IMG/VR virus record: IMGVR_UViG_3300006754_000140
Location: 1-26,191 of that record
DNA length: 26,191 bases
From: a virus
Reading direction: 5' to 3' (one strand)
The position numbers and the translations under genes are program-made. Positions 1,877 to 25,200 of the stretch are shown here, piece after piece; positions within the stretch are counted from its first letter, which is position 1; each line of letters opens with the position of its first letter. Under the pieces are notes generated by a model. The model was not told where the DNA came from. It did no database searches and saw nothing but the letters and a program-made list of their open reading frames with translations.

Positions 1877-3151
1877 ATGCCATCAGAAGAAATCGTAAAA
1901 TCTTTAGCAACAAAAGATAGTAATTCTTTCGAACTTTATGAAAATCGTAAGGCTTATAAAAATAGAACTTTAACAAGTTATGGAGATCATGGCGGAACAA
2001 GATATATCCAGCCTGGCATAGCTGAATTTTGGTATGATAGGTATCTTTACGGAAAAGTTAATCGACAGGGCGATATTGTTATTATGCGTGAAGATTTTTT
2101 AAAAACTTTACGCGGCAGCTCAAAAGGCACATTTTATGCTTTAAATTTTGTTGCTCTAGCCTTCAGTGAAATGAAAAATTATCTTGAGAGGCACACGGGC
2201 CCCAATCGAATTCCGAATAAGAAGACTTTGTTTGCTCTCTTAAATCCGGCAGCTGCTTGGCAAGGTATATACAACCAATATCATGATTATATGAAAGGTA
2301 CCTATACCGTTTTTCTCGATTATTTAACTCAATTTGGCAGAGAAAAAAATATTAATAATTTTGATGATTTTATTGAAGAATACTTTATATTTTGCCAAAA
2401 TACAATAACAACAGTCGACAATCCTATAACTCTTTCTGGATTCGTAACAAACGGACATGTCAGCGCCCATTGCGGCGGATTAACCATTGATCTTTTCAAA
2501 GCTCGCGCCTCTAACGACCCGCTTAAGAATGATCTTTTTATTCGAGATATAAACTTTGATTTTTTCGTACATGCTGCGACGAAACATGGCTTTGTCATTG
2601 ATAAAAATGTGCCATGGCGCCTCACCGCAAATTTAAATTCTGATTATATGAGGCGCTTGATGGAATCTATAGCTTTTGATGTCACTTACTCTCTTGGGCC
2701 CCGTCATGTTTTTGATATATATTACTTGAAAACCTATACAATGGATCTTATACTTTTGAGAAAATATATGTACGATATGTATAATTCATTGCTGATTCAT
2801 ACACCATTTTATACCAAATATAAATATTGTAATAATACAGGAAAAACCAAAAATATTAAAGTTACACGCCGCCCAATAACTTCTGCAGCCGCAGAACATT
2901 TATATACTGTTAAGGATTATTGGTTAGAAAAAGCACACCGATTCAGACTTTTAGAGTTGGATCATGATCTGCAAGAAGAAAATATCAAAAAACAAATTAA
3001 AAATGCAAAATCAGTCTATGATATTCGCGGTGAGATGCATTCTTTAAAATATTTACACAATCATACAAAAAGATTTTTTCTGCACGAATATAATAAATTG
3101 AATGCCAATTTGAAGCTTAACATTCCTCAACATTCACCAAAAATAACTTGA
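1877..3151 (+). CDS. Putative virion structural protein (424 aa), function unknown
   Basis: The ATG follows a GGGAGG Shine-Dalgarno (about 1860-1865) and lies 3 nt after the previous stop. The protein is rich in Tyr, Phe and Asn with no transmembrane segment or signal peptide. A central block (about residues 190-250) contains 'NGHVSAHCGGLTIDLF' and 'KHGFVIDKNVPWRL', which look like conserved segments of phage structural proteins, but I cannot assign a named family. The C-terminal 90 residues are helical and charged (Lys/Glu/His). Its stop TGA (3149-3151) overlaps the -35 box of the promoter for the next gene, so this is probably the last gene of a late structural operon. No terminator separates it from the replication genes. 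Confidence 0.65.
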   Translation: MPSEEIVKSLATKDSNSFELYENRKAYKNRTLTSYGDHGGTRYIQPGIAEFWYDRYLYGKVNRQGDIVIMREDFLKTLRGSSKGTFYALNFVALAFSEMKNYLERHTGPNRIPNKKTLFALLNPAAAWQGIYNQYHDYMKGTYTVFLDYLTQFGREKNINNFDDFIEEYFIFCQNTITTVDNPITLSGFVTNGHVSAHCGGLTIDLFKARASNDPLKNDLFIRDINFDFFVHAATKHGFVIDKNVPWRLTANLNSDYMRRLMESIAFDVTYSLGPRHVFDIYYLKTYTMDLILLRKYMYDMYNSLLIHTPFYTKYKYCNNTGKTKNIKVTRRPITSAAAEHLYTVKDYWLEKAHRFRLLELDHDLQEENIKKQIKNAKSVYDIRGEMHSLKYLHNHTKRFFLHEYNKLNANLKLNIPQHSPKIT

Positions 3152-3175
3152 TTTTTCCTGAATTGTTGTTATAAT
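3148..3175 (+). promoter_or_regulatory. Sigma70-type promoter for the polA/tubulin-like unit; leaderless start
   Basis: TTGATT (3148-3153), 16-bp spacer, TATAAT (3170-3175). The ATG of the polymerase gene lies only 6 nt past the -10 box, where transcription would start, and no Shine-Dalgarno precedes it. The mRNA is therefore predicted to be leaderless. An inverted repeat AAAAAT/ATTTTT (3139-3144 / 3151-3156) straddles the -35 box. Confidence 0.65.
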
Positions 3176-3181
3176 CCCTAT

Positions 3182-4348
3182 ATGTTATTCCAAACACTTG
3201 ACAACAAGAACGGTTGTGTCGGCTTTTATCGCGACGGCAAGTTTCTACAAGAATTCGACAACCAGTGCAAAGTTACTTGGCGCCATAATCCCAGACTAGT
3301 CGGCAAAGATGTTGATTTTGTTCAGATTTATGCCGAAGGCAAAGAATTGGACGATATTTGTCCTGAACACTTAAAAGAAGAATGGCAGCAAATGCAAACA
3401 AAAATGTGTAATTTTTACACAAGTTTCCAAATTAGTAAAGTTAATTTACAGGATGTTTGCTTTTATGACTTGTTGCCTGAAAAATTTCTTAAGAAATATT
3501 GCGAGGCTAAAAATGAAATTTGTCGGTGGATCGTCAACAACGCAGAGAAGCCCAAAAATTACGATTTGATGAAAAACATTCTTGGTTTTGTGGCTGAAAT
3601 TGAGACCCGCGAATTAAGCCTAAATTGGTCAGATATTGAACTAGCGAGCATCAAGTCGCGCGCGTTATTAAAAAGAAAGGACACCATCTCAAATAAAGTT
3701 CAATATAATCCATGGAAAACGATTACCGGCCGTTTGGCAACAACACCAAACAGTTTTCCAATATTGACGATGAACAAAGAGAGCAGATCGATAATTAAGC
3801 CTCAAAATGACCTGTTTCTGGAGTTAGATTATAATTCAGCAGAATTGAGGACTGCTTTTGGTCTCCTTAAAATGGAACAGCCGACAATCGATATTCATGA
3901 TTGGATTTTGGAGAATGTGTTCAAGGGTAAGGTTACACGAGAAAAATCAAAGGAAAAGACTTTCGCATGGCTCTATAATGCAAAAGCATCGAACAAGAAA
4001 CTTGAAAAAATATTTGACAAACAGAAGATTTTAGATTATCATTATGACGGAAATTGTGTGAATACCATATATAATAGAAGCATAGAAGTAGATGATAAGA
4101 AAGCCCTGAATTATATTATTCAGAGCACCACGAGCGATTTGGTTTTAACACAAGCAATGAAGATCAGCAAATTAATAGAAAAATCTTTTATTGCATTTGT
4201 GGTGCATGACAGCATCGTCATCGACGTTGATCGATCTGATCGGGGGAAACTTGATGAAATTATTGATGTTTTTTCGAAAACAGACCTGGGGACGTTCAAA
4301 ACCAACGTTGCGCTCGGAAAAAGCTTCGGAGATATGAGAAGGTTATAA
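3182..4348 (+). CDS. Minimal family A DNA polymerase (palm/fingers only)
   Basis: A DNA polymerase I-family catalytic module. Visible motifs: 'TGRLATTPNSFPIL' (residues 182-195, the RL..PN.Q region), motif A 'LELDYNSAELR' (213-223, metal-binding D216), motif B R253/K257/F261/Y265 (the R-xxx-K-xxx-F-xxx-Y helix), and motif C 'VHDSIVI' (341-347, D343). At 388 aa it is far shorter than T7 gp5 (about 700) or Pol I (about 930). No 3'-5' exonuclease signature (DxE...) is seen in the ~170 residues before the palm, so it probably cannot proofread. The start lacks a Shine-Dalgarno and sits 6 nt after a TATAAT box. The stop TAA overlaps the next ATG by 1 nt, coupling it to the tubulin-like gene. A full replicative DnaE is encoded at 16584, so this enzyme may serve primer removal, gap filling or repair, or work with a separate exonuclease subunit; that is inference. 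Confidence 0.88.
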   Translation: MLFQTLDNKNGCVGFYRDGKFLQEFDNQCKVTWRHNPRLVGKDVDFVQIYAEGKELDDICPEHLKEEWQQMQTKMCNFYTSFQISKVNLQDVCFYDLLPEKFLKKYCEAKNEICRWIVNNAEKPKNYDLMKNILGFVAEIETRELSLNWSDIELASIKSRALLKRKDTISNKVQYNPWKTITGRLATTPNSFPILTMNKESRSIIKPQNDLFLELDYNSAELRTAFGLLKMEQPTIDIHDWILENVFKGKVTREKSKEKTFAWLYNAKASNKKLEKIFDKQKILDYHYDGNCVNTIYNRSIEVDDKKALNYIIQSTTSDLVLTQAMKISKLIEKSFIAFVVHDSIVIDVDRSDRGKLDEIIDVFSKTDLGTFKTNVALGKSFGDMRRL

Positions 4349-5208
4349 TGTCAACTATTATTGGATTAGGAAAAGCCGGCTGCAGCATTGCCAAAGAAAT
4401 GAGTATATATCCTCAATATAACATTTTTTGTATTGATTCAGAGGAACATGATCATAACAAGTTTAAGCTTATCGAAAAGCAGAAAAACTTCGAGGCTTAT
4501 GAAAACAAGTTCCCGTCAATTAAAAAGTTCCTTAAAGGTGCAAAAGCGCCATATACTGTGATTGTTGGCGGCTCCGGTGCAATTTCTGGTTCAATCTTAA
4601 GATTAATGGAACAGCTAGCTAGCAAAGAAATTTCTGTGATTTTCATTAAACCAGAAATTGATATTTTATCTAATTTAGCGGAGAAGCAAGAACGTTTGGT
4701 CTTCCATGTTCTTCAGCAGTATGCTCGCTCAAATATGATTGATAAGATGTTTGTAATTTCTAATTCTGAATGTGAATCGATTTTGGGCGGCCTCACTGTT
4801 AAAAATTATTTTAATAAAATTAACAAGTTGATTGTAGCAACCTATCATATGTACAACGTATTCCAGAATATAGAGCCTCTAATCCAGACGCATGCAGATC
4901 CCCTTGAAATATGCAAAATAGCCACTTTTGGAATCGTCGATGAAGCCGGCTCTGAAAAGCTACTATATGACTTAAAGTTTCCGAGGGAAAAACATCTTTA
5001 TTATTCTGTAACAAACGATTCCTTGGAAAACGACGTTTCTCTGATGAAGAATATAAAAGAACAAGTAAGAGAAAAGATGACAGACAAACTGAAAGTCTCA
5101 TATTCAGTGTATGAGAACGATTACGATCAGAATTATATATATTCATGCACCTTCGCTTCAATGATTCAGGAAGAAAATTATGATTTTCCTCTTGACTCTG
5201 ATGTTTAA
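4348..5208 (+). CDS. Candidate divergent tubulin/FtsZ-like GTPase (286 aa)
   Basis: Several elements line up in order with the tubulin/FtsZ fold. An N-terminal glycine loop 'IIGLGKAGCSIA' (residues 4-15) resembles the FtsZ T1 loop and is followed by a strand ending in an acidic residue ('IFCIDSE'). 'VIVGGSGAISGS' (71-82) resembles the tubulin signature GGGTGSG and is followed by helix-strand 'ISVIFIKPE'. 'MIDKMFVISNSE' (130-141) resembles the 'vDtlIviPNd' segment. 'HADPLEICKIATFGIVDEAG' (182-201) matches the position and pattern of the T7 synergy loop. The 85-residue C-terminal part ending in 'YIYSCTFASMI' resembles the FtsZ C-terminal domain. The signature is imperfect (one extra residue), and a Rossmann nucleotide-binding protein remains the alternative. 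The Shine-Dalgarno AGAAGG precedes the ATG, which overlaps the polymerase stop by 1 nt. Phage tubulins (PhuZ, TubZ) are known, but this does not obviously belong to either. Confidence 0.55.
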   Translation: MSTIIGLGKAGCSIAKEMSIYPQYNIFCIDSEEHDHNKFKLIEKQKNFEAYENKFPSIKKFLKGAKAPYTVIVGGSGAISGSILRLMEQLASKEISVIFIKPEIDILSNLAEKQERLVFHVLQQYARSNMIDKMFVISNSECESILGGLTVKNYFNKINKLIVATYHMYNVFQNIEPLIQTHADPLEICKIATFGIVDEAGSEKLLYDLKFPREKHLYYSVTNDSLENDVSLMKNIKEQVREKMTDKLKVSYSVYENDYDQNYIYSCTFASMIQEENYDFPLDSDV

Positions 5209-5220
5209 CGTTGCTATAAT
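5192..5220 (+). promoter_or_regulatory. Strong sigma70-type promoter for ssb-uvsX
   Basis: TTGACT (5192-5197), 17-bp spacer, TATAAT (5215-5220), continuing as TATAATATATAC. The -35 lies inside the end of the preceding gene. A 6-bp inverted repeat GAAAAT/ATTTTC (5173-5178 / 5183-5188) ends 3 nt upstream of the -35. The predicted transcript has a leader of about 68 nt before the SSB start. Confidence 0.8.
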
Positions 5221-5235
5221 ATATACACAATAAGC

Positions 5236-5257
5236 GGCCCGATAGACCAATCGGGTT
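5236..5257 (+). promoter_or_regulatory. Hairpin in the SSB mRNA leader
   Basis: CCCGAT (5238-5243) pairs perfectly with ATCGGG (5250-5255) around a 6-nt loop, extendable by two G-U pairs. It lies in the 5' leader downstream of the promoter and 37 nt before the start codon, with no T-tract, so it is not a terminator. T4 gene 32 is autoregulated through structure in its own leader; a similar role here is only a suggestion. Otherwise it may simply stabilise the mRNA 5' end. Confidence 0.5.
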
Positions 5258-5294
5258 GACTATACCTCAATGGACAAAACAAAAGGAGTTTAAA

Positions 5295-6032
5295 ATGGGT
5301 ATTGATTTGAAGAAGATGCGCGCCAAGATGGATGCGCTTGAGAACCGAGGCGGCAAGAATATTTTTTGGCGCCCCGAAGATGGAGAGACCACCATTCGCT
5401 TGGTCCCGACTGCTGATGGAGATCCTTTCAAGGAGTATTGGTTCCATTATAACGTTGGAAACAACCCGGGCTTTTTGAGCCTAAAGAAGAACTTTAGCGA
5501 GGAAGATCCGTTGGATGATTTCATCCGCCAGCTTTATCGCGAAGGCGGCGAGGACAACACTCGTCTCGCCAAGAAGCTCGGCGCTCGCCAGCGTTTCTTC
5601 ACACCGGTCATTGTACGTGGCCAGGAGGACCAGGGCGTCAAGATCTGGGGCTACGGCAAGATGGCTTACAAAGAGCTGCTTAACCTAGTATTAAACCCTG
5701 ATTACGGCGATGTTACAGATACTGCCGAGGGCACGGATCTTGTCATCAATTATGGCAAGCCGCCTGGAGCACAGTTTCCGCAGACGTCGATTACACCTCG
5801 TCGTAAGACATCTCCCCTATCACAGGATGAGAATAAGGTCCACGCTTGGCTTGATTCCATTCCTAATTTTGAGGAGGTTTTTGAGCGGAAGACTGCAGAT
5901 GAGGTTCGAACGATGCTTGATGAGTACCTTCTGACGCAGGACGACGCGGAAGAGGTTTCTACCGAGTCGACTCGCTACGAGAAGAGCGACAACAGCACTG
6001 ATCGAGCCTTTAAAGAGCTTCTGAACGGGTAA
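5295..6032 (+). CDS. Single-stranded DNA-binding protein, T4 gp32-like (245 aa)
   Basis: Coats ssDNA at the replication fork and helps load recombinase and helicase. gp32-family features: a basic N-terminus with 'KKMRAKMDAL', then 'FWRPEDGETTIRLVP' (about residues 23-37) and 'PFKEYWFHYNVGNNPGFLSL' (about 43-62), the start of the OB core. The C-terminal third is acidic (Asp/Glu/Ser/Thr) and ends 'RAFKELLNG', the usual protein-interaction tail. The protein contains no cysteine at all, so the zinc ribbon of T4 gp32 (His plus three Cys) is absent. ATG 5295 is chosen because AAAAGGAG (5281-5288) precedes it at good spacing; a longer frame from TTG 5256 would run through the leader hairpin. Own promoter just upstream; uvsX follows after 65 nt. 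Confidence 0.85.
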   Translation: MGIDLKKMRAKMDALENRGGKNIFWRPEDGETTIRLVPTADGDPFKEYWFHYNVGNNPGFLSLKKNFSEEDPLDDFIRQLYREGGEDNTRLAKKLGARQRFFTPVIVRGQEDQGVKIWGYGKMAYKELLNLVLNPDYGDVTDTAEGTDLVINYGKPPGAQFPQTSITPRRKTSPLSQDENKVHAWLDSIPNFEEVFERKTADEVRTMLDEYLLTQDDAEEVSTESTRYEKSDNSTDRAFKELLNG

Positions 6033-6097
6033 TAAGACCCTCAACCGCAGGGAGGCACGGGTTTACAGGTGTCTCAATTTTTTAACCCGAGGGAAAA
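6026..6097 (+). promoter_or_regulatory. Structured leader with mutually exclusive pairings before the recombinase gene
   Basis: The 65-nt gap between ssb and uvsX is long for this genome and rich in complementary blocks. CCCTC (6038-6042) can pair with GAGGG (6089-6093), which is the Shine-Dalgarno of uvsX. Alternatively CCTC (6039-6042) pairs with GAGG (6052-6055). CGGGTT (6058-6063) pairs with AACCCG (6084-6089), ending at the Shine-Dalgarno, while a second CGGGT (6026-6030), at the ssb stop codon, can pair with ACCC (6037-6040) or with the same AACCC. These alternatives could switch ribosome access to uvsX. No ligand-type aptamer is recognised and no T-tract terminator is present. Confidence 0.45.
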
Positions 6098-7192
6098 ATG
6101 GCAAAAAAGAAGAAGAACGGTAGGATAGATACAACGAGTCTTATTGACCTGATTAATAAGAAAGCAGGCGAAACGCTTGCGTATGATTTAACAAAAGATA
6201 ATCCAACCGAGGTTAAAGAGTGGATTCCGACTGGATCCACGTGGCTTAACAAAATTACTTGTGTAGGCAATCCAAATGGTGGAGTTCCTGTTAGCAAGAT
6301 TACAGAACTCGCTGGATTAGAAGGATCAGGTAAATCCTATATGGCCGCGCAAATTGCGGCCAATGCTCAAAAGATGGGCATTGAAGTTGTTTACTTTGAT
6401 TCAGAGTCTGCTTTAGACCCAGCATTTTTAGAACAAGCTGGGTGTGACGTTGCCAAGATTGCCTATACACAAGCGAAGACTGTTGAATTTGTTTTCGAAA
6501 CGATGGAGATGCTTCTCGGAGAGACAGATAAGAGGCTTTTATTTGTTTGGGATAGTGTCGCACAAACGCCAACCAGAAAGATGTTAGATGAGGATTTTGA
6601 TCCTCAATCTTCGATTGGCTACAAAGCTCGTCTTTTATCCAAAGCCATGAAAAAGATGACCATTCCTTTGGCCAATAACCAATGTACTTTATTAGCTTTA
6701 AACCAGCTAAAAACAAATATCACAACTGACCGGGCCTCTCTGATGACGGAGCCATACGTTACGCCTGGAGGCAAAGCTTTGCCATACTCATATTCTTTGC
6801 GTATTTGGCTTACTGTACGAAAAGCAAAAGCTTCTTACGTTACTGATGAACACGGATACAAAATTGGTTCTGAAGTTAAAGCGCGGATAAAGAAATCACG
6901 TTTTGGCTCTTTGGGACGCGAATGTACATTCAAGATTTTGTGGGGTAACCACGTCGGCATTCAAGATGAAGAAAGTTGGTTTGACGCAATTCAGCCATCA
7001 GAGAATCTTGAGCGCAATGGGGCCTGGTATACTTTGAAATACGAAGATGGAACATTCGAAAAGTTTCAATTTACAAAATGGCACGAAAAGATTAAAGAAG
7101 AAAAATTTAGAACGAGGGTAATTCAGATAATGGATGAAGTTGTCGTACAAAGTTGGCACCCAATAGAAGAACAAATTTCTGTTGTCTCATAG
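6098..7192 (+). CDS. uvsX: RecA/UvsX-family recombinase (364 aa)
   Basis: ATP-dependent strand-exchange protein for phage recombination, repair and recombination-primed replication. RecA-core motifs: 'IPTGSTWLNKI' (residues 43-53), Walker A 'GLEGSGKS' (73-80), 'VVYFDSESALD' (97-107), Walker B 'RLLFVWDS' (146-153), the 'LNQLK' sensor (201-205), 'TPGGKALPYSYSLRIWL' (222-238, the GG.AL..Y.S.R segment), and 'VKARIKKSRFG' with 'ILWGNHVGI' near 260-287. There is a gp32-like SSB immediately upstream and no bacterial RecA C-terminal domain, which fits a UvsX-type phage enzyme better than host RecA. The start follows Shine-Dalgarno GAGGGA with 4-5 nt spacing, inside a leader whose structure may control it. 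Confidence 0.88.
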   Translation: MAKKKKNGRIDTTSLIDLINKKAGETLAYDLTKDNPTEVKEWIPTGSTWLNKITCVGNPNGGVPVSKITELAGLEGSGKSYMAAQIAANAQKMGIEVVYFDSESALDPAFLEQAGCDVAKIAYTQAKTVEFVFETMEMLLGETDKRLLFVWDSVAQTPTRKMLDEDFDPQSSIGYKARLLSKAMKKMTIPLANNQCTLLALNQLKTNITTDRASLMTEPYVTPGGKALPYSYSLRIWLTVRKAKASYVTDEHGYKIGSEVKARIKKSRFGSLGRECTFKILWGNHVGIQDEESWFDAIQPSENLERNGAWYTLKYEDGTFEKFQFTKWHEKIKEEKFRTRVIQIMDEVVVQSWHPIEEQISVVS

Positions 7193-8047: not shown

Positions 8048-9016
8048 ATGTCGATTAATGGAAGGGTGTTGGTCATCGACCAACTTAACCTATTTTTGCG
8101 TAATTATGTAATTAATCCATCGGAGTCTCAATGGGGCCCAATTGGTGGAATAAAAGGCACAATGCAATCACTACAAAAGCTTTGTAATGATGTAAAGCCT
8201 GATCATATTGTTATCTGTTGGGATGGTGCTGGCGGCTCTATCAAACGCAAACAGATGAAGAAGGATTATAAAGCCGGCCGCGCCCCATTGCGCCTAAACC
8301 GAGCTTTTCATCACCTGGATGAGGACGAAGCAAAACAAAATCGTTTCTTTCAGGAGTTGCGCCTTGTTGAGTACTTCAATGAAATGCCGGTGATTCAGTT
8401 TAAATTTGATAATGTAGAGGCTGATGATATCGTCGCATATGTTTGCCAAATGCCGGAATTAGAAGATTGTGAGAAGGTTATTGTATCTAATGACAAAGAT
8501 TTTTTCCAGTTAGTTTCTGGTAAAACTGTGCTTATGCGGCCTGTTGAAAAGAGTCGAGTGTACAATAGTAGGACTGTCCTTAGTGAGTTTAAGATTCATC
8601 CACACAATTTTGCATTAGCAAAAGCAATGATTGGTGATAAGAGTGATAATCTGCCAGGAATTTCTGGTGTTGGAGAGGGACGAATCAAGAAAGACTTCCC
8701 GCAGTTTAACAGCGACCAGCAACTTACAATCGATGAATTGCTAGACTATTGTCGTGATAACCAACAGACTAGTAAAAGAAAAATGTGGAAAGAGATTGTC
8801 GATAACGAGCGCGTTATTAGATTAAATTATAAGATGATGCAACTTTACGCACCCCATTTATCCATAGACAACAAAAGAGAAATTCAGGAGGTAATTCAGG
8901 ATCCGGATTTGACTTTTAATAAGATGAATGTCATGAAGATGATGATGCGTGATGAGTTTGCACAAGTAAGCTTTTCTGATATGTTTAAAGCATTTCAAAG
9001 AATGGCAAAACAATAA
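8048..9016 (+). CDS. 5'-3' exonuclease / flap endonuclease (FEN, T4 RNase H-like)
   Basis: Structure-specific nuclease that removes RNA primers and 5' flaps. FEN motifs in order: 'VLVIDQLNLFLRNY' (residues 7-20, D11), 'IVICWDG' (54-60, D59), a basic arch helix 'KRKQMKKDYKAGR' (66-78), 'VEADDIVAY' (123-131, E124, D126, D127), 'SNDKDFFQLV' (147-156, D149, D151), 'MIGDKSDNLPG' (194-204, D197, D200) and the helix-hairpin-helix 'GISGVGEGRIKK' (204-215). All acidic metal ligands of the family are present, so it should be active. Its 322 aa match T4 RNase H (305) and Pol I N-terminal domains. The minimal family A polymerase at 3182 lacks this domain, so the two functions joined in bacterial Pol I are separate genes here. 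Shine-Dalgarno AGAGGG. Confidence 0.9.
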   Translation: MSINGRVLVIDQLNLFLRNYVINPSESQWGPIGGIKGTMQSLQKLCNDVKPDHIVICWDGAGGSIKRKQMKKDYKAGRAPLRLNRAFHHLDEDEAKQNRFFQELRLVEYFNEMPVIQFKFDNVEADDIVAYVCQMPELEDCEKVIVSNDKDFFQLVSGKTVLMRPVEKSRVYNSRTVLSEFKIHPHNFALAKAMIGDKSDNLPGISGVGEGRIKKDFPQFNSDQQLTIDELLDYCRDNQQTSKRKMWKEIVDNERVIRLNYKMMQLYAPHLSIDNKREIQEVIQDPDLTFNKMNVMKMMMRDEFAQVSFSDMFKAFQRMAKQ

Positions 9017-9025
9017 GAGGATAAA

Positions 9026-10381
9026 ATGACTGAGGGTATAGATTTTTCTAAATATGGAAAATCATTTCAAGAATCGCTAGCGCAATTAATGTTTGAAGAT
9101 CGTCCTTTCTGCGATCAAATCGAGGAAGTGTTAGACATTGGTTTTTTTGAGTTAAAGTATTTACGCGTTTTTGTTGAACGCGTTTTTGACTATAGAAAGC
9201 AATACGGAGTGCATCCATCAATAAACGTCTTTACGTCAATATTACGTACAGAGTTGGAACATTACACTCCAGCACTACAAAAGCAAGTACGTGATTATTA
9301 TGTACGATGCGAAGCTCGCGATGTACAAGATACTGAATACATCAAGAATACAAGTCTAGATTTTTGTAAAAAGCAAAAGTTGAAGGCTGCTCTAGTACAG
9401 TCTGTTGAATTGATCCGTAGTTCTTCTTTTGATGAAGTTAAGCAAGTTATTGATGAAGCTCTTAAATTAGGTGTGGATAACAATTTTGGCCACGATTTTC
9501 TAAAAGATTTTGAAGCTCGATATGAAATCAAAGCTCGAAATCCAATTTCAACTGGCTGGAGTAAGATCGATAAACTTACCGGCAACGGCCTAGGCTCCGG
9601 AGAGCTGGGAGTAGTTATTGCTCCAACCGGAGCCGGCAAATCAATGGCTTTGGCTCATTTGGGGTCTGCCGCAGTTAAAAATGGCAAAAATATTGTCCAT
9701 TATACTTTAGAATTATCAGAGGCTGTAACTGGCCAGCGCTACGATAGTTGTACAACCGGTGTTCCTTTATCACAATTATTTGACAGGAAGGACGAAGTCT
9801 TTGAAAATATTACAGATATTGAAGGATCTCTTATTATTAAAGAATATCCAACAAAAACTGCTTCTCCGGGCACGATAAGAAAACATCTAGAAAAATTAAA
9901 AAAACAAAATCGAAAAATCGATATGATTATAGTAGATTACGCCGATTTGCTCCGTCCTGTCAAAAGTTACAAAGAGAAAAGGAACGAACTAGAGTCTATT
10001 TATGAAGACTTGCGGGCAATTGCCCAAGAAAACCAGTGTCCAGTTTGGACAGCATCACAAACGAATCGTTCAGGATTAAATGCAGAAGTCGTAACTATGG
10101 AATCAATTTCGGAAGCCTTCAACAAGTGTTTTGTATCAGATTTTATTTGTTCTATATCGAGAACAATTAAAGATAAGAATTCTAATCAGGCAAGAATGTT
10201 CATCGCCAAAAATCGTAATGGCCCTGATGGGCTAATATTTTCTATGCATATGGATACTTCCTGCGTAAAACTGCAGGTTATTGATAAAACTGAACTCGGC
10301 AATATTTCGCCGACATCTGATCCAAAAGAATTCGGCGCTGGTGAAATATGGAAAAAGTCTAGAAAAGGAGGAACGCACTAG
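9026..10381 (+). CDS. Replicative DNA helicase, DnaB / T4 gp41 family
   Basis: Hexameric 5'-3' fork helicase. The N-terminal ~150 residues are helical, the DnaB_N-like collar. The RecA-type motor follows: 'PISTGWSKIDKLTGNGLGSGELGV' region (173-196), Walker A 'APTGAGKS' (199-206), catalytic 'TLELSE' (E229), Walker B 'MIIVDYADLL' (300-309), sensor 'ASQTNR' (Q345), and a C-terminal arginine-finger segment 'AKNRNGPDG' (R397). Length (451) matches gp41/DnaB (about 470). No primase domain is fused and none is seen in the window, so a primase must lie elsewhere or come from the host. The stop TAG overlaps the next GTG start by 1 nt. Confidence 0.9.
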   Translation: MTEGIDFSKYGKSFQESLAQLMFEDRPFCDQIEEVLDIGFFELKYLRVFVERVFDYRKQYGVHPSINVFTSILRTELEHYTPALQKQVRDYYVRCEARDVQDTEYIKNTSLDFCKKQKLKAALVQSVELIRSSSFDEVKQVIDEALKLGVDNNFGHDFLKDFEARYEIKARNPISTGWSKIDKLTGNGLGSGELGVVIAPTGAGKSMALAHLGSAAVKNGKNIVHYTLELSEAVTGQRYDSCTTGVPLSQLFDRKDEVFENITDIEGSLIIKEYPTKTASPGTIRKHLEKLKKQNRKIDMIIVDYADLLRPVKSYKEKRNELESIYEDLRAIAQENQCPVWTASQTNRSGLNAEVVTMESISEAFNKCFVSDFICSISRTIKDKNSNQARMFIAKNRNGPDGLIFSMHMDTSCVKLQVIDKTELGNISPTSDPKEFGAGEIWKKSRKGGTH

Positions 10382-15684: not shown

Positions 15685-16545
15685 ATGAACATTAAAGATT
15701 TGGTTGGTAACACCCCGATCATCGAACTAAAATCTAATATTTTCGCAAAGTTAGAAACTTTTAACCTATCAGGAAGTATTAAAGATCGGATTGTACTATA
15801 TATACTCAACAACGCTGAAAACAAAGGCTTAATTAATGAAGACACTATTTTGGTTGAAGCAACGAGCGGCAATACTGGCATTGCTCTCGCTATGCTCGGT
15901 TCTATAAAGAAATATAAAGTAAAAATTATAATGCCATCGAATATGTCTGAAGAGCGAAAGCAGCTCATAAGATTATATGGTGCAGAAATAATCGAAGTTG
16001 GCCACAACGACTTTCCAGGCGCAATTGCGCTTCGGGACAAGCTTGTTCGAGAGAATGACAATTGGTGGTCTTTGAATCAATTCGAGAATCCGTTAAACGT
16101 TGAATGCCATGAAAAAACAACAGCCAAAGAAATTGTAAGGCAAATTTTCATCGACCGACGCCTGGAACCAGAAGTTTTAATTTGCGGTGCAGGTACTGGC
16201 GGCACCATAATGGGCGTGGGAAGGGTCCTTAAACGAATCAACAAAGATATCAGGATCATACAGGTCAAGCCGGCCGAAGATGCGTTAAATCACGGGATAC
16301 AGGGCATTGGAGACGGCGGCGATTACTTGGTAGATCCTGATTTTATTGATGAAGTCATCTTCATTAAGACTGCAGACGCAATTGCAAAAGCCAAGGAATT
16401 ATCATTAAATGGCCTCCTGGTCGGCATAAGTTCCGGAGCAAACGTTTTGGCAGCAGAACAAGCGGCTGCGACACACAAAGGCAATGGGGCGATTATTACA
16501 TTCCTTTGTGATCGCGGCGAAAGATATTTATCTCTTTACTCTTGA
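15685..16545 (+). CDS. cysK: Cysteine synthase-like PLP enzyme (CysK/CysM family, 286 aa)
   Basis: A fold-type II PLP enzyme that would make cysteine from O-acetylserine (or phosphoserine) and sulfide. Sequence: 'VGNTPIIEL' (residues 7-15), PLP lysine K33 in 'LSGSIKDR' (28-35), the substrate loop 'TSGNTGIA' (60-67), 'QFENPLNVECHEKTT' (around 132-146), the phosphate-binding loop 'GAGTGGT' (168-174), 'HGIQGIG' (203-209), 'GISSGAN' (247-253) and the C-terminal 'CDRGERYLS'. All catalytic elements are intact. At 286 aa it is slightly trimmed compared with bacterial CysK (about 310-320). Shine-Dalgarno AAGAGG. A metabolic gene rarely expected among replication genes; no other sulfur gene is nearby. 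A related beta-replacement reaction with another nucleophile is possible. Confidence 0.88.
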   Translation: MNIKDLVGNTPIIELKSNIFAKLETFNLSGSIKDRIVLYILNNAENKGLINEDTILVEATSGNTGIALAMLGSIKKYKVKIIMPSNMSEERKQLIRLYGAEIIEVGHNDFPGAIALRDKLVRENDNWWSLNQFENPLNVECHEKTTAKEIVRQIFIDRRLEPEVLICGAGTGGTIMGVGRVLKRINKDIRIIQVKPAEDALNHGIQGIGDGGDYLVDPDFIDEVIFIKTADAIAKAKELSLNGLLVGISSGANVLAAEQAAATHKGNGAIITFLCDRGERYLSLYS

Positions 16546-16583: not shown

Positions 16584-19500
16584 ATGGAACGAACAGAGAG
16601 CAAGATTCCGTTTGTGGGTCTCCATGCGCATAGCGTTGTGGGATCCCCATTCGATGGATTTGGATATCCGCAAGATCATATGGATTTTGCATATCAGAAT
16701 GGCAGTCATGCATTAGCGCTGACAGACCATGGAAATATGAATGGAACGTCATATCAAGTTCTTCACGCGAAGAAGATGAAGGCCGAGGGCAAGGAGTTCA
16801 AGCCAATTTTTGGTGTTGAAGCCTACTTCGTGCCCTCTGTCGCCAAGTGGAAAGAAGCATATGAAGAGGCCAAGGCTGATAAGAAGACAGCCAGAGGTTT
16901 AGAAAAAGAGGACGGTCGACTTGTAACCGAGGATGAGAATATCTCAAAGCAAAAGAGCAACTTAATCAAGGCTCGTCGACATTTAGTTCTTTTAGCGCAG
17001 AATCAGACAGGTCTTAATAATATCTTTAAGATTGTGTCTGAAACGCACCAGGGTGATCATTTTTATCGGTACCCTCGTGTTGATTATAAATTATTGGAGA
17101 AGTATAATGAAGGGATTATTGCGTCGTCTGCTTGTTTGGGTGGTGTTTACGCTGGTGATTATTGGGATAACTTGGACAGTGGACCTGATTCTATATTAGA
17201 TGCAATGCGTGAGACAACTACTCGTATGCAATCTATTTTAGGAGATCGGTGGTATGGGGAGTTACAGTGGAATAACGTGCCGGCACAACACGAATTGAAT
17301 CAATACGTCGTGCAGCTGCATCAGGAGACTGGATTGGAACTTATTTCTACGGCAGATAGCCATTATCCAAATCCGGATGCGTGGAAAGACCGCGAACTAT
17401 ACAAGCGTTTGGGATATCTTAATCGACCCAAGAAGCCGGACTGGCTAACGTCAGAATTACCCGTTGATGTTGATGAAGTAGGGATGGAACTTTATCCGAA
17501 GAATGGAGACCAGATGTGGGAGTCGTATAAGAAGTATTCTGAAGAGTGTCAAGTGATTTATGATGATGACTTGGTTTACGATTCTATCGTCAAGACTCAT
17601 TTTATCGCTAGCGAACGTATAGAAGATTTTATGCCAGATGACACTGTACGCCTACCAAGCTTCGTTGTACCGGCCGGCGTGACTGCAGATGAGGCTCTCC
17701 TCAAGATGTCAGTGGCCGGCCTGCGAAGTTTAAGTTTAGACGAGAATGAAGAATATGCACAGCGCCTCCAGCATGAACTGGATGTTATTGTTGACCGCGG
17801 CTTCTCAAAGTATTTCCTGACAATGAAGGCGATCTCTGACAAAGCAAATGAGAATATGCTTTCAGGACCTGGACGAGGCTCAGCTGCTGGCTCTCTTGTC
17901 GCCTATGTCCTTGGAATCACACAAATCGATCCCATTAAGTATGGCCTGCTGTTCAGCCGCTTCTTACGTTCTGACGCAACTGATTATCCAGACATTGATT
18001 ATGATGTCAGCGATGCGTTTGGTCTGAAAGAGATCTTGGCTAAGGAATGGGGCGAGACGAATGTTGTGCCAATTTCAAATTACAATACTCTTCAACTCAA
18101 GTCTTTGATCAAAGATATCTCAAAGTTCTATGAAATAGAATTCGTTGAAGTTAATCGAGTGACCGGACGAATGGTCAAGGAAGCAACTCCGAAAGCAAAG
18201 GCAGCAAAGGGAATTAAGGCCGGCCTCTACATTCCAAATTTTGAAGAGCTTATGCAATACTCTGATTCTCTGCAGGAATTCTTAGCAAAATACCCACATA
18301 TCAAAACTCACATCGAAGCCTTATACGGACAAGTTCGATCTGTTAGTCGACACGCCGGCGGCGTTGTGATTGGAGAAGATCTAGATAAGCATATGCCTCT
18401 AATCAATAGAGGCGGTGTCGTGCAGACCCCATGGGCGGAAGGACAGAATGTTAGACATCTAGAACCAATGGGTTTTATTAAGTTTGATCTGCTAGGCCTC
18501 TCAACATTAGAGATGATTCAGTCTTGTGTTGGTCATATTCTCCGTCGCCACAAAGGTGTTGAGAATCCAACTTATCAGGACATTAAAGAATATTACAATA
18601 CATATATTCATCCAGACAAGATTGATCTAGAGGATCAAGAGGTATACAAGAACATTTTCCAGAAAGGCAAATTTGTTGGTATTTTTCAGTTTACTAATGA
18701 GGGCGCCCAGCGCTTTTGTAAGTCTGCGAAACCTACTAGTATCATTGACATTTCTGCCATTACCTCGATTTATCGTCCCGGCCCATTGGGCGCCCACGTT
18801 GATAAGTCTTACGTAAAAGCAAAGCGGAATCCTTCCGAGGTTCAATACGTTAACGATCTTGTAAAGGAAGTTACAGAAGAGACAGCAGGTTTCTTAATTT
18901 TCCAGGAGCAAATTGCATTGCTGGCTCATAAGCTTGGCAAAGATTTCTCTCTAGACGAGGGCAACAAACTTCGCAAGCTCTTAACCAAAAAGGGAACTGG
19001 CTCTGTACTGAAAGAGAAGAACAAACTTGAGAAGAAGTTCTTGGACGGATGTTTAGAGAAGAACATCGATTTAACTACAGCTAGCAAACTTTGGCGAAAC
19101 TTTGAGTATTTCTCTGGTTATGGCTTTAACAAGTCTCACGCAGTTTCATATTCTGTTCTGTCTTATCAGTGCGCGTGGCTTCTCAATTACTACCCGGAAT
19201 GCTGGACTGCAGCCTTCTTAGACAAGGAGCCGGAGTCTCGTAAAGAGTTAGCCATTTCCTTGGCACAACAATACGGGTTTGAGGTAACGGATATTGATAT
19301 CAACACCTCCGCGGGTATTGCCTGGGAGATTAGTGAGGATGGTAAGACTTTAATTCAGCCTTTGAGTTCAATCAAAGGCCTCGGCGCCGCGGCCATTAAA
19401 CAAATCGTCGATAACCGTCCGTTTGAGAATGCAGAAGATCTACTTTTTAAGGAAGGGGTGACATATTCCAAATTAAACAAGAAGGCGCTAGATGTACTGT

Positions 19501-20018
19501 GTCGTTCAGGGGCTTTGGATAAAATAGTTGATGATACATTTACAGGAAAGAAGCATTTTTGGATGTCGTGTATCCAAAATCGTCCGAAGAACAAGAAGAA
19601 GATGTTAGAGAATATTCAGGAGTTTCATGACGCCGGCGAATTCTCCCGAGAGGAAAAGATTAATAACATTTCAGATTTGACGGGAATTTTTCCCTTTGAT
19701 ATCGTTCTTTCAAGGGATGTTAAGTCAGCTATTCAACGATATGAAGTACCAGCGCTTGGCGATTGGGATCCAGAACTTGGTGCAGCTTGGTTTGTTCCTC
19801 GCGAGAAGATTGCCAAGAAGACAAAGAATGGAAAGCCATATTGGATTTTAAAAGTTATTGACAATACCTCAACGGTGAATACTATTAGAGTCTGGGGAGT
19901 TGATCCAAATAGAGATTTAATTCATTTGAATCGTCCATATGGAGCCCAACTAAGCTATAGCGAGGATTGGGGATTTAGTTTGAGGCTAAATAAAAATAGA
20001 TTAGTATTATTAGGTTGA
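16584..20018 (+). CDS. dnaE: DNA polymerase III alpha subunit (family C, DnaE type)
   Basis: Complete replicative polymerase, 1144 aa against 1160 in E. coli. N-terminal PHP domain with all nine metal-site residues: H14, H16, D24, H49, E79, H133, C184, D258, H260. The palm has 'GPGRGSAAGSLVAYVLG' (428-444) and catalytic aspartates D472 and D474 ('YPDIDYD') plus D635 ('IKFDLLGL'). Then 'SIYRPGPLGAH', 'FQEQIALLAHKLGKDF', 'LRKLLTKKG', 'FNKSHAVSYSVLSYQ', a helix-hairpin-helix ('SSIKGLGAAAIKQI') and a C-terminal OB-fold. No separate epsilon-type (DnaQ) exonuclease is seen in the window, so the intact PHP site may proofread, as in Thermus-type enzymes. Family C polymerases are known in a minority of phages. 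Own promoter, Shine-Dalgarno GAGAGGG; unit may read on into 20042-23452. Confidence 0.95.
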   Translation: MERTESKIPFVGLHAHSVVGSPFDGFGYPQDHMDFAYQNGSHALALTDHGNMNGTSYQVLHAKKMKAEGKEFKPIFGVEAYFVPSVAKWKEAYEEAKADKKTARGLEKEDGRLVTEDENISKQKSNLIKARRHLVLLAQNQTGLNNIFKIVSETHQGDHFYRYPRVDYKLLEKYNEGIIASSACLGGVYAGDYWDNLDSGPDSILDAMRETTTRMQSILGDRWYGELQWNNVPAQHELNQYVVQLHQETGLELISTADSHYPNPDAWKDRELYKRLGYLNRPKKPDWLTSELPVDVDEVGMELYPKNGDQMWESYKKYSEECQVIYDDDLVYDSIVKTHFIASERIEDFMPDDTVRLPSFVVPAGVTADEALLKMSVAGLRSLSLDENEEYAQRLQHELDVIVDRGFSKYFLTMKAISDKANENMLSGPGRGSAAGSLVAYVLGITQIDPIKYGLLFSRFLRSDATDYPDIDYDVSDAFGLKEILAKEWGETNVVPISNYNTLQLKSLIKDISKFYEIEFVEVNRVTGRMVKEATPKAKAAKGIKAGLYIPNFEELMQYSDSLQEFLAKYPHIKTHIEALYGQVRSVSRHAGGVVIGEDLDKHMPLINRGGVVQTPWAEGQNVRHLEPMGFIKFDLLGLSTLEMIQSCVGHILRRHKGVENPTYQDIKEYYNTYIHPDKIDLEDQEVYKNIFQKGKFVGIFQFTNEGAQRFCKSAKPTSIIDISAITSIYRPGPLGAHVDKSYVKAKRNPSEVQYVNDLVKEVTEETAGFLIFQEQIALLAHKLGKDFSLDEGNKLRKLLTKKGTGSVLKEKNKLEKKFLDGCLEKNIDLTTASKLWRNFEYFSGYGFNKSHAVSYSVLSYQCAWLLNYYPECWTAAFLDKEPESRKELAISLAQQYGFEVTDIDINTSAGIAWEISEDGKTLIQPLSSIKGLGAAAIKQIVDNRPFENAEDLLFKEGVTYSKLNKKALDVLCRSGALDKIVDDTFTGKKHFWMSCIQNRPKNKKKMLENIQEFHDAGEFSREEKINNISDLTGIFPFDIVLSRDVKSAIQRYEVPALGDWDPELGAAWFVPREKIAKKTKNGKPYWILKVIDNTSTVNTIRVWGVDPNRDLIHLNRPYGAQLSYSEDWGFSLRLNKNRLVLLG

Positions 20019-21825: not shown

Positions 21826-22848
21826 GTGAAAAAAGCATTATCATATGACGATGTATTACTTGTTCCGCGATATAGTGATATCGAAAGTAGAGGGCAGGTC
21901 GACATCGGCAGCAGTTTAGGAGATGATTTAAAATTTAAATTACCAATTATTTCCAGTCCGATGGATACCGTTACCGAAGATAAGATGGCGTGTATGATGG
22001 CTTCACACGGAGGCCTAGGCATAATTCATCGTTATAACGAAATCGAGGAGCAGGCCCGTACTGCAGCCCGCGCCTTGTTTGAGGGCAATGAAAAAACTGT
22101 TGGGGCAGCAATTGGAATGACCGGAGATTATGAAGAACGGGCCATGGCCTTGTGTTCTGTCGGCGTAGAGGTGTTATGTGTCGATGTCGCCCACGGCCAT
22201 CACATTATGATGGAGAGGTGCCTAAAGACACTTAAAGACCGTTTTCAGAACAAAGTACATATAATGGCCGGCAACGTTGCGACACTAGAAGGCTTCGAAG
22301 CATTAGCTTCCTGGGGAGCAGATTCAATCCGTGTTGGTATTGGCGGCGGCTCCATCTGTTCTACTAGGCTCATATCCGGACACGGTGTTCCCACACTAGA
22401 GAGTATTATGGAATGTGCCAAGAGCACATCTGATGTAAAAATTATTGCAGATGGAGGGATAAAAACTTCTGGCGATATAATTAAATCATTGGCCGCCGGC
22501 GCTGACTTTGTTATGATAGGGTCTTTGCTGGCAGGATCTGAGGAAACTCCCGGTGAAACGTTCTGCGGAAATACAGGCAAAAGGTATAAAGTATACAGAG
22601 GCATGGCATCAGCGGATGCGCAAAATGAATGGCGCGGGAAAACGTCAACCCCAGAGGGGATTTCAACTACCGTTTCGTTTAAAGGTAGTGCTGGCGATAT
22701 CCTTGAAGATCTCGCTGGTGGTATTCGCAGTGGTCTCTCTTACACGGGCGTGCGAAGTCTTGGAGAACTTCGATGTAAAGCAACTTTCATTAGACAAACA
22801 CACGCTGGTCAATCCGAAAGTTCCACCCACATTTTGAGGAGGAGCTAG
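21826..22848 (+). CDS. IMP dehydrogenase / GMP reductase family enzyme without CBS domains
   Basis: TIM-barrel purine oxidoreductase. 'LSYDDVLLVPRYSDI' (5-19), 'PIISSPMDTVTE' (40-51), 'GLGIIHRY' (63-70), 'VDVAHGH' (119-125), 'IMAGNVAT' (146-153), catalytic Cys loop 'GIGGGSICSTR' (171-181, C178), 'IIADGGIK' (206-213), 'YRGMAS' (257-262) and the C-terminal 'TFIRQTHAGQSES'. There is no CBS pair between residues 80 and 100, where IMPDH normally carries one; that and the length (340 aa) are GMP-reductase-like. 'TPEGIS' with 'GGIRSGLSYTG' leans toward IMPDH. I therefore leave the direction open: IMP to XMP, or GMP to IMP. GTG start with AGGAG Shine-Dalgarno. The stop overlaps the next gene (TAGTG). 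Confidence 0.88.
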   Translation: MKKALSYDDVLLVPRYSDIESRGQVDIGSSLGDDLKFKLPIISSPMDTVTEDKMACMMASHGGLGIIHRYNEIEEQARTAARALFEGNEKTVGAAIGMTGDYEERAMALCSVGVEVLCVDVAHGHHIMMERCLKTLKDRFQNKVHIMAGNVATLEGFEALASWGADSIRVGIGGGSICSTRLISGHGVPTLESIMECAKSTSDVKIIADGGIKTSGDIIKSLAAGADFVMIGSLLAGSEETPGETFCGNTGKRYKVYRGMASADAQNEWRGKTSTPEGISTTVSFKGSAGDILEDLAGGIRSGLSYTGVRSLGELRCKATFIRQTHAGQSESSTHILRRS

Positions 22849-24456: not shown

Positions 24457-25200
24457 ATGTTTAGTGCCAAAAAAGAAGATACGAAGAAACCTGCAAAAAA
24501 GCGGCCATCGAAGAAGAAGGCTGTAGAAGAAGATGAGGTGCCAGAAGAAGAAAATAAAGAAGAGACACCACCTGACTCAACGATGGAGGATCTATCATTT
24601 CTCTTGAATCTTGGAGGAGGAACGGCCGAGAGCCCCCCGCAACTGAGAGTTACAGGAATCTACGGAGATATTAATGAAGAAAAATGTTCAGAAACTCTTT
24701 ATTCAATGTTGCTACTTCAAAAATCTGGTATGAAATTAGAACCAGAAGATCCAGAAGACCCAGAATCTGAGCTAATCGAAGTTAGTGAACCTTTTGATTT
24801 TTTTGTATCTTCTCACGGAGGATCCGCAGTTGAAATGTTCTCATTGTATGATATAATGAGACAGATAAGAGAAACAATGCCAATTCATACAGTTGGGATT
24901 GGCAAAGTAATGTCAGCCGCAACACTTCTCCTGGCCGCCGGGACAAAAGGCGAAAGAAAGATCGGCAGGTATTGCCGCGTTATGATTCATGGTGTTATTT
25001 CTGGACAGCATGGTCACTTAGCTGATATTGAAAATGAATTTGATGAAGCTAAAATGACACAAAAACTGTATATTCAAGCACTTGCAGAAGAAACAAATAT
25101 GACCGAAAGATATTTGAGAAATCTAATTAAGAAGAAGAGTAATGTTTATATATCGGCCGAGGAGGCTGTTGACTTAGGGATTGCAGATATAGTGATATGA
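24457..25200 (+). CDS. ClpP-like serine protease homologue (247 aa), altered catalytic triad
   Basis: ClpP/S14 fold. Residues 1-58 are a Lys-then-Glu-rich linker. The core shows 'VTGIYGDIN' (65-73, the i.l.g.i.d strand), 'DFFVSSHGGSAVEMFSLYDIM' pattern (114-134, the inSpGG..aGl.iyD motif), nucleophile S153 in 'GIGKVMSAATLLLAAGTKGER' (position 147-167), base H178 in 'RVMIHG', and 'ISAEEAVDLGIADIVI' (232-247, the msa.EA.eyGliD.v end). Aligned to ClpP, the third triad residue, normally Asp in 'eRDrfmsa', falls on N229 ('KKKSNVYISA'). An acidic insert (about 90-112) interrupts the head domain. It may be a prohead protease or a ClpP mimic or modulator. Shine-Dalgarno AGGAG; the stop overlaps the amidase start by 4 nt. 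Confidence 0.82.
   Translation: MFSAKKEDTKKPAKKRPSKKKAVEEDEVPEEENKEETPPDSTMEDLSFLLNLGGGTAESPPQLRVTGIYGDINEEKCSETLYSMLLLQKSGMKLEPEDPEDPESELIEVSEPFDFFVSSHGGSAVEMFSLYDIMRQIRETMPIHTVGIGKVMSAATLLLAAGTKGERKIGRYCRVMIHGVISGQHGHLADIENEFDEAKMTQKLYIQALAEETNMTERYLRNLIKKKSNVYISAEEAVDLGIADIVI

Follow-up and report, generated by a model that had tools for sequence, protein, structure and literature searches.

Does the 286-residue product of an open reading frame in a phage replication region belong to the tubulin/FtsZ superfamily, and what would so small a tubulin do next to a DNA polymerase gene? The window analyzed in this study is the whole 26,191-nucleotide stretch of the IMG/VR record IMGVR_UViG_3300006754_000140. 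The original prediction, made from the sequence alone, had singled out a frame at 4348-5208 on the plus strand. This frame is open over exactly these coordinates and encodes 286 residues, and the four peptides on which the prediction was based occur in the order claimed, that is, GLGKAGCSIA (residues 6-15), GGSGAISGS (74-82), DKMFVISN (132-139), and ADPLEICKIATFG (183-195). The frame is intact in 141 homologous ORFs (median 280 residues), it shows a purifying pattern with pN (~0.13-0.21) far below pS (~0.73-0.82), and its glycine loop and the asparagines N139 and N159 are nearly invariant, showing a genuine gene and not a chance frame. One in-frame stop was observed inside the tubulin profile match in the contigs G008, G012, G028, G029, and G032, which may mean either that the alignment overran the genuine stop codon or that the gene is broken.

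The product is almost certainly a tubulin/FtsZ-superfamily protein. The AlphaFold2 model built on the A5 alignment of 84 homologs (84 of the 141 collected ORFs, thinned at 80% identity) has pLDDT 94.8 and pTM 0.91, with 94.1-94.8 over the five models; an earlier model from seven close sequences was poor (pLDDT 43) and was discarded. In the Foldseek comparison of this model with the PDB, the best match is TubZ (4ei7, E 7.8e-13), followed by FtsZ, and all of the best 50 matches listed are to TubZ or FtsZ. The VIA-align Z scores are 25.5 for CetZ, 23.3 for both TubZ and FtsZ, and ~22 for tubulin over residues 1-286, covering the N- and C-terminal domains, and the score is at least 8 for all 713 chains aligned. 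BFVD gave a match (TM 0.75) that comes from an uncultured phage and is annotated as "FtsZ cell division GTPase". The tubulin/FtsZ-like fold suspected from the peptides is thus borne out.

Sequence comparison by itself gives marginal evidence of tubulin identity. A profile of 48 sequences matched TubZ (4ei7) in register with E 1e-4, TubZ being the only family with a significant match, and the match was gone with the 84-sequence A5 profile; we treat it as supporting evidence only. Using hhalign, E. coli FtsZ was aligned over residues 3-271, with T1, T4, the T6 Asn, and the H7 Asn matched. The Pfam Tubulin domain weakly matched nine of the 48 members, of which none reached the PF00091 gathering cut-off (best E 0.003), and the contigs also gave no match above it. 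PHROGs returned nothing of note for the window protein alone and nothing consistent for the 84 members, and phmmer against the PDB with the window protein alone gave sub-threshold or chance matches only. An ordinary NAD(P)-binding Rossmann protein, or some other enzyme with a chance likeness to tubulin, was the outcome that would have spoken against the prediction, and it has virtually nothing left in its favor, as the sub-threshold single-sequence Pfam matches to TrkA_N (E 0.006) and saccharopine dehydrogenase and the weak KtrA alignment of an early profile are set against a high-confidence family model that fits the whole two-domain tubulin/FtsZ fold (Z 22-25) and against the conserved guanine-site asparagines. 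Taken by themselves, those single-sequence matches would have favored a wrong "dehydrogenase" label.

In the model, for which the strand and helix names were assigned by us, the N-terminal part contains S1 (2-7), H1 (8-20), S2 (24-30), a short element (39-41), an H2-like helix (48-53), a strand (69-74), and H3 (78-90). The middle part contains S4 (95-101), H4/5 (109-127), a strand (133-138), an H6-like helix (139-146), and H7 (154-174), and the C-terminal part contains S7 (191-197), S8 (212-222), H10 (232-243), S9 (249-257), and S10 (263-270). The 16 residues between H7 and S7 are helix-free and the S7-S8 interval holds nothing but one short strand, so that H8 and H9 are missing. The last strand, S10, stops at residue 270 and the final 16 residues form neither helix nor strand, hence H11 or a long tail is absent as well. 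The modeled protein is therefore a tubulin fold reduced to its core. A VLQQYARS stretch at a helix end is strongly conserved. To our knowledge, no natural tubulin fold is more reduced than that of this family, which has neither H8, H9, and H11 nor conserved T7 acids.

The nucleotide site is conserved in the family. In the T1 loop, G6 and G11 are found in all 84 sequences and G8 in 83. The T6 and H7 asparagines align with FtsZ residues that we take, from general knowledge of FtsZ and tubulin, to contact the base. An aromatic residue is usual at position 155, four residues ahead of N159, which is the spacing seen in FtsZ and tubulin; other conserved positions are D30, E49/E52, G75, and S80. Since T1 and both base-contacting asparagines are conserved, the small tubulin likely binds GTP/GDP. 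The T4 peptide had been called signature-like, and this part of the prediction needs correction: the canonical tubulin signature [SAG]GGTG[SAT]G is present in 0/84 members versus 8/8 FtsZ proteins. PhuZ also mostly lacks it, and the T4 signature thus does not define the superfamily.

The segment taken for the T7 loop is a mixed case, as a DxxE motif is indeed present in the window protein (D184, E187), but the family as a whole does not conserve it, and no H8 follows it. NxDxx[DE] is found in none of the 84 sequences and DxxD/E in 30, the window protein among them. At strictly T7-equivalent spacing from N159 the family has F/L182 and P185; two residues further, acids occur at 184 in 41 and at 187 in 60 of the 84 sequences, with either one present in 73. 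The entropy of the segment is 2.50 versus a column mean of 1.85. In the control sets, FtsZ has its T7 acids at D209 (8/8) and D212 (7/8), and PhuZ at D201 and D204 (both 10/10). PhuZ T7-loop mutants without GTPase activity form non-dynamic filaments (PMC7950403). Because the canonical T4 is absent, the T7 acids are unconserved, and the model has no H8, H9, or H11, hydrolysis-driven dynamics is doubtful as a family property, though some members, for instance the window protein with its D184 and E187, may still hydrolyze GTP.

Table 1. Features of the small tubulin gene and its neighborhood (window coordinates)
Feature	Coordinates	Strand	Remarks
Promoter-like site, extended -10, directly ahead of the polymerase gene	3148..3175	+	Consensus match only
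Small family-A DNA polymerase, 388 aa	3182..4348	+	Pfam DNA_pol_A, E 4e-13
Tubulin/FtsZ-superfamily protein gene	4348..5208	+	286 aa, ATG start; minimal core (model without H8, H9, H11/tail)
T1 glycine-rich loop IIGLGKAGCSIA, aa 4-15	4357..4392	+	G6, G8, A10, G11, C12 nearly invariant
T4-like phosphate loop GGSGAISGS, aa 74-82	4567..4593	+	Canonical GGTG[SAT]G in 0/84
N139 codon, T6 Asn	4762..4764	+	81/84; aligned to FtsZ N165 (guanine contact)
N159 codon, H7 Asn	4822..4824	+	83/84; aligned to FtsZ N186 (guanine contact)
T7-like segment EPLIQTHADPLEIC, aa 176-189	4873..4914	+	Variable across the family, no H8
Promoter-like site TTGACT-17-TATAAT, directly ahead of gp32	5192..5220	+	Consensus match only
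gp32-type single-stranded DNA-binding protein	5295..6032	+	Pfam gp32, E 2e-11; phrog_1192
UvsX/RecA recombinase	6098..7192	+	
5'-3' exonuclease	8048..9016	+	
DnaB-like replicative helicase	9026..10381	+	

The locus was rightly described as a phage replication region, with the gene order polA, tubulin, gp32, UvsX/RecA, dCMP deaminase, 5'-3' exonuclease, DnaB, and RNR. The final A of the polymerase stop codon TAA also serves as the A of the tubulin start codon, ATG. Promoter-like consensus sites number 18, versus 7.5 in shuffles. Given one such site before polA, the 1-nt stop/start overlap, and a second site before gp32, the polymerase and the tubulin would be co-produced from one short operon. 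Wherever the contig reaches far enough, the 388-aa polymerase lies upstream of the tubulin (117/117 loci) and gp32 downstream (128/128), the latter followed by UvsX/RecA, the exonuclease, DnaB, and in many cases RNR. At least one small gene is inserted between the polymerase and the tubulin in ~35 loci. Across a large group of uncultured phages, the position of the tubulin-fold core protein within the replication cluster is constant.

Several further features of these loci were observed. The insertion hot spot between polA388 and the tubulin (for instance, L064:7687-7998) often holds a 100-112 aa "YNKLVRDRIPEII" (YNKLVRDRIP) protein that resembles, by eye, MazG-like NTP pyrophosphohydrolases and has no Pfam match. 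The 86-nt gap ahead of gp32 (window positions 5209-5297) contains part of an extended -10 promoter-like site and a CCCGAT/ATCGGG hairpin (z -1.7) upstream of the gp32 ribosome-binding site; the two are possibly involved in gp32 regulation. The 388-aa polymerase seems, by eye, not to be long enough to include a separate 3'-5' exonuclease domain, and the window also encodes, at 16584-20018, a 1144-aa DNA polymerase III alpha-like protein with a PHP domain. Host-like metabolic genes encode a PLP-dependent cysteine synthase-like protein (15685-16545), IMP dehydrogenase (21826-22848), an enzyme of the GTP synthesis pathway, and a ClpP-like protease (24457-25200).

Iterated profile searches of IMG/VR increased the number of small-tubulin relatives from 7 to 17, then to no fewer than 503 and finally to 590 or more, reaching down to ~30% identity. 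No tblastn match to the window protein and two divergent members was found in 50,697 phage records, PhuZ phages included, and one scan of 84,980 GTDB species found no member; full-text searches of open-access papers yielded no published description of the family. It is an unrecognized family, numerous in environmental viral contigs but with no member in the records of cultured phages that were searched, and the viruses that carry it form a large uncultured group that infects bacteria. The 15 large contigs (102-191 kb) have one tubulin copy each and all encode T4-type gp23. None of these 15 contigs matched chimallin in a single-sequence search that also missed JM-2012 and whose positive control matched only itself; the search for RNAP beta was insensitive even on 201phi2-1.

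The nearest cultured phages sharing the module are Flavobacterium phage immuto and Microcystis phage Mel-JY01, along with the uncultured 484-kb LR756508. Profile searches of these three whole records found no tubulin. In these relatives the slot between polA and gp32 is occupied by a conserved 129-151 aa "HRKKESNTLYTINALN" (HRKK) protein (L186:1346-1801, L185:3621-4064, and L187:5785-6174); a divergent tubulin in this slot was considered and rejected, given the size of the protein and the profile result. In a gp32-anchored scan of the tubulin-less side, 64 loci with enough upstream DNA contained no tubulin and 51 HRKK proteins, and the HRKK protein was found in none of the tubulin loci. The two proteins look mutually exclusive in this slot, one in each of two phage groups, the tubulin loci having been selected by their tubulin.

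A second phage-encoded family, A7 (~345-364 aa, for instance L189:5390-6481 on the minus strand), is FtsZ/CetZ-like and has at least 107 IMG/VR relatives on contigs of up to 281 kb; it gave no match in cultured phage records. Unlike the small tubulin, it conserves a canonical T1 (GVGGGGG), T4 (GGGGGTGSA), and T7 (FDxKDL), and the two families align weakly (hhalign E 0.0018). Both are found together in at least eight contigs. Constant pairing was rejected, since A7 is present in two of 21 contigs with the small tubulin, which in turn occurs in six of 22 contigs chosen by A7.

What could the small tubulin do? We tentatively propose a GTP/GDP-binding, tubulin-fold replication accessory that organizes replication sites, probably via slow or static oligomers. 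Its action as an organizer at the phage replication site is suggested by the operon and the synteny, though a place among replication genes is no proof of a function in replication. The nucleotide face could still permit head-to-tail or heterotypic contacts, whereas GTP hydrolysis in the next subunit would be weak or absent because the T7 acids are not conserved and H8 is absent. Short or static oligomers or filaments would then gather or position replicating phage DNA, with no dynamic spindle of the PhuZ type. Judging from the model, the loss of H8 may even prevent polymerization altogether. This non-dynamic oligomeric organizer is the mechanism we would choose, without strong conviction, over a dynamic filament, a GTP-bound accessory, and an anti-FtsZ decoy.

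A cytomotive tubulin like PhuZ and TubZ, whose GTP-hydrolyzing dynamic filaments center or segregate phage genomes, would agree with the shared fold, with a genome near the size class where phage tubulins occur, and with the DxxE at the T7 position of the window protein. We consider it unlikely, as the T7 acid pair is kept in 30/84 members versus 10/10 in PhuZ, and the model lacks H8 and the C-terminal H11 or tail, which TubZ uses for contacts within the filament and with partners (PMC5322520). Further, no iteron or repeat array was found near the tubulin gene (window 2900-6200), and no TubR-like gene was noted. Equally to be doubted is a non-polymerizing, monomeric GTP/GDP-binding switch or replisome accessory, for instance one that adapts the polymerase or SSB to the state of the nucleotide pool. 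The lost T7/H8 half of the longitudinal interface, the tight linkage to the polymerase and gp32, the VLQQYARS stretch, which would suit a putative partner, and the IMP dehydrogenase gene in the window would all fit such a switch, but the well-studied tubulin-fold GTPases polymerize. Finally, a decoy that co-assembles with host FtsZ or blocks it, thereby stopping division, is improbable: FtsZ-targeting phage proteins are known, and a nucleotide face combined with a degenerate T7/H8 face could conceivably cap FtsZ filaments, but the gene has its fixed place among replication genes, not early host-takeover genes, and its similarity to FtsZ is remote.

A tubulin relative this small, missing several of the usual elements and encoded within the replication cluster, suggests that phages have recruited the tubulin fold for a new task in copying their genomes. 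If the context of the small tubulin (a core replication cluster, gp23, and no chimallin match) holds, then viral tubulins are independent of a nucleus and of partition. Further, because the small tubulin is so reduced, it offers a direct test of which tubulin parts are needed for nucleotide binding, polymerization, and hydrolysis. It is possible, and we put it forward guardedly, that the family is a third, nucleus-independent lineage of phage tubulins, in which the reduced core would be a replisome component and the bound GTP would serve a structural or sensing role and not hydrolysis-driven filament dynamics.

Two groups of phage tubulins are known, PhuZ, which nucleus-forming jumbo phages encode, and TubZ, which belongs to plasmid-like phages, and by membership tests the small tubulin is neither of these, nor FtsZ. 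It shares with PhuZ the phage origin and the tubulin fold. PhuZ, which occurs together with chimallin, has 312-342 residues in the comparison set and an invariant T7 acid pair, and the hhalign alignment with it covers residues 3-99 only (E 5e-5). TubZ of plasmids and prophages (4ei7, 2xka) is the best Foldseek match, has a VIA-align Z of 23.3, and is likewise carried on mobile DNA, but it has a C-terminal tail, whereas the small tubulin has no tail helix after S10. The TubZ tail serves filament contacts and partners in a system with TubR and tubC (PMC5322520). FtsZ shares the fold (Z 23.3, 2r6r), the T1 loop, and the T6 and H7 asparagines, but it has the GGGTGTG signature (8/8 versus 0/84), and the small tubulin also lacks NxDxxD, conserved T7 acids, H8/H9, and the linkage to division genes seen for FtsZ. 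The best structural match is archaeal CetZ (3zid and 4b45; Z 25.5 and 24.9 over residues 1-276/277), a likeness measured in fold at 13-14% identity; CetZ chains have 334-342 residues versus 286, and the phage protein differs in its lack of H8/H9 and conserved T7 acids. A 2021 survey recognized two distinct representatives of the family among phage tubulins (PMC7824862), and as the small tubulin has no close phage homolog, its original placement as a third, small lineage holds.
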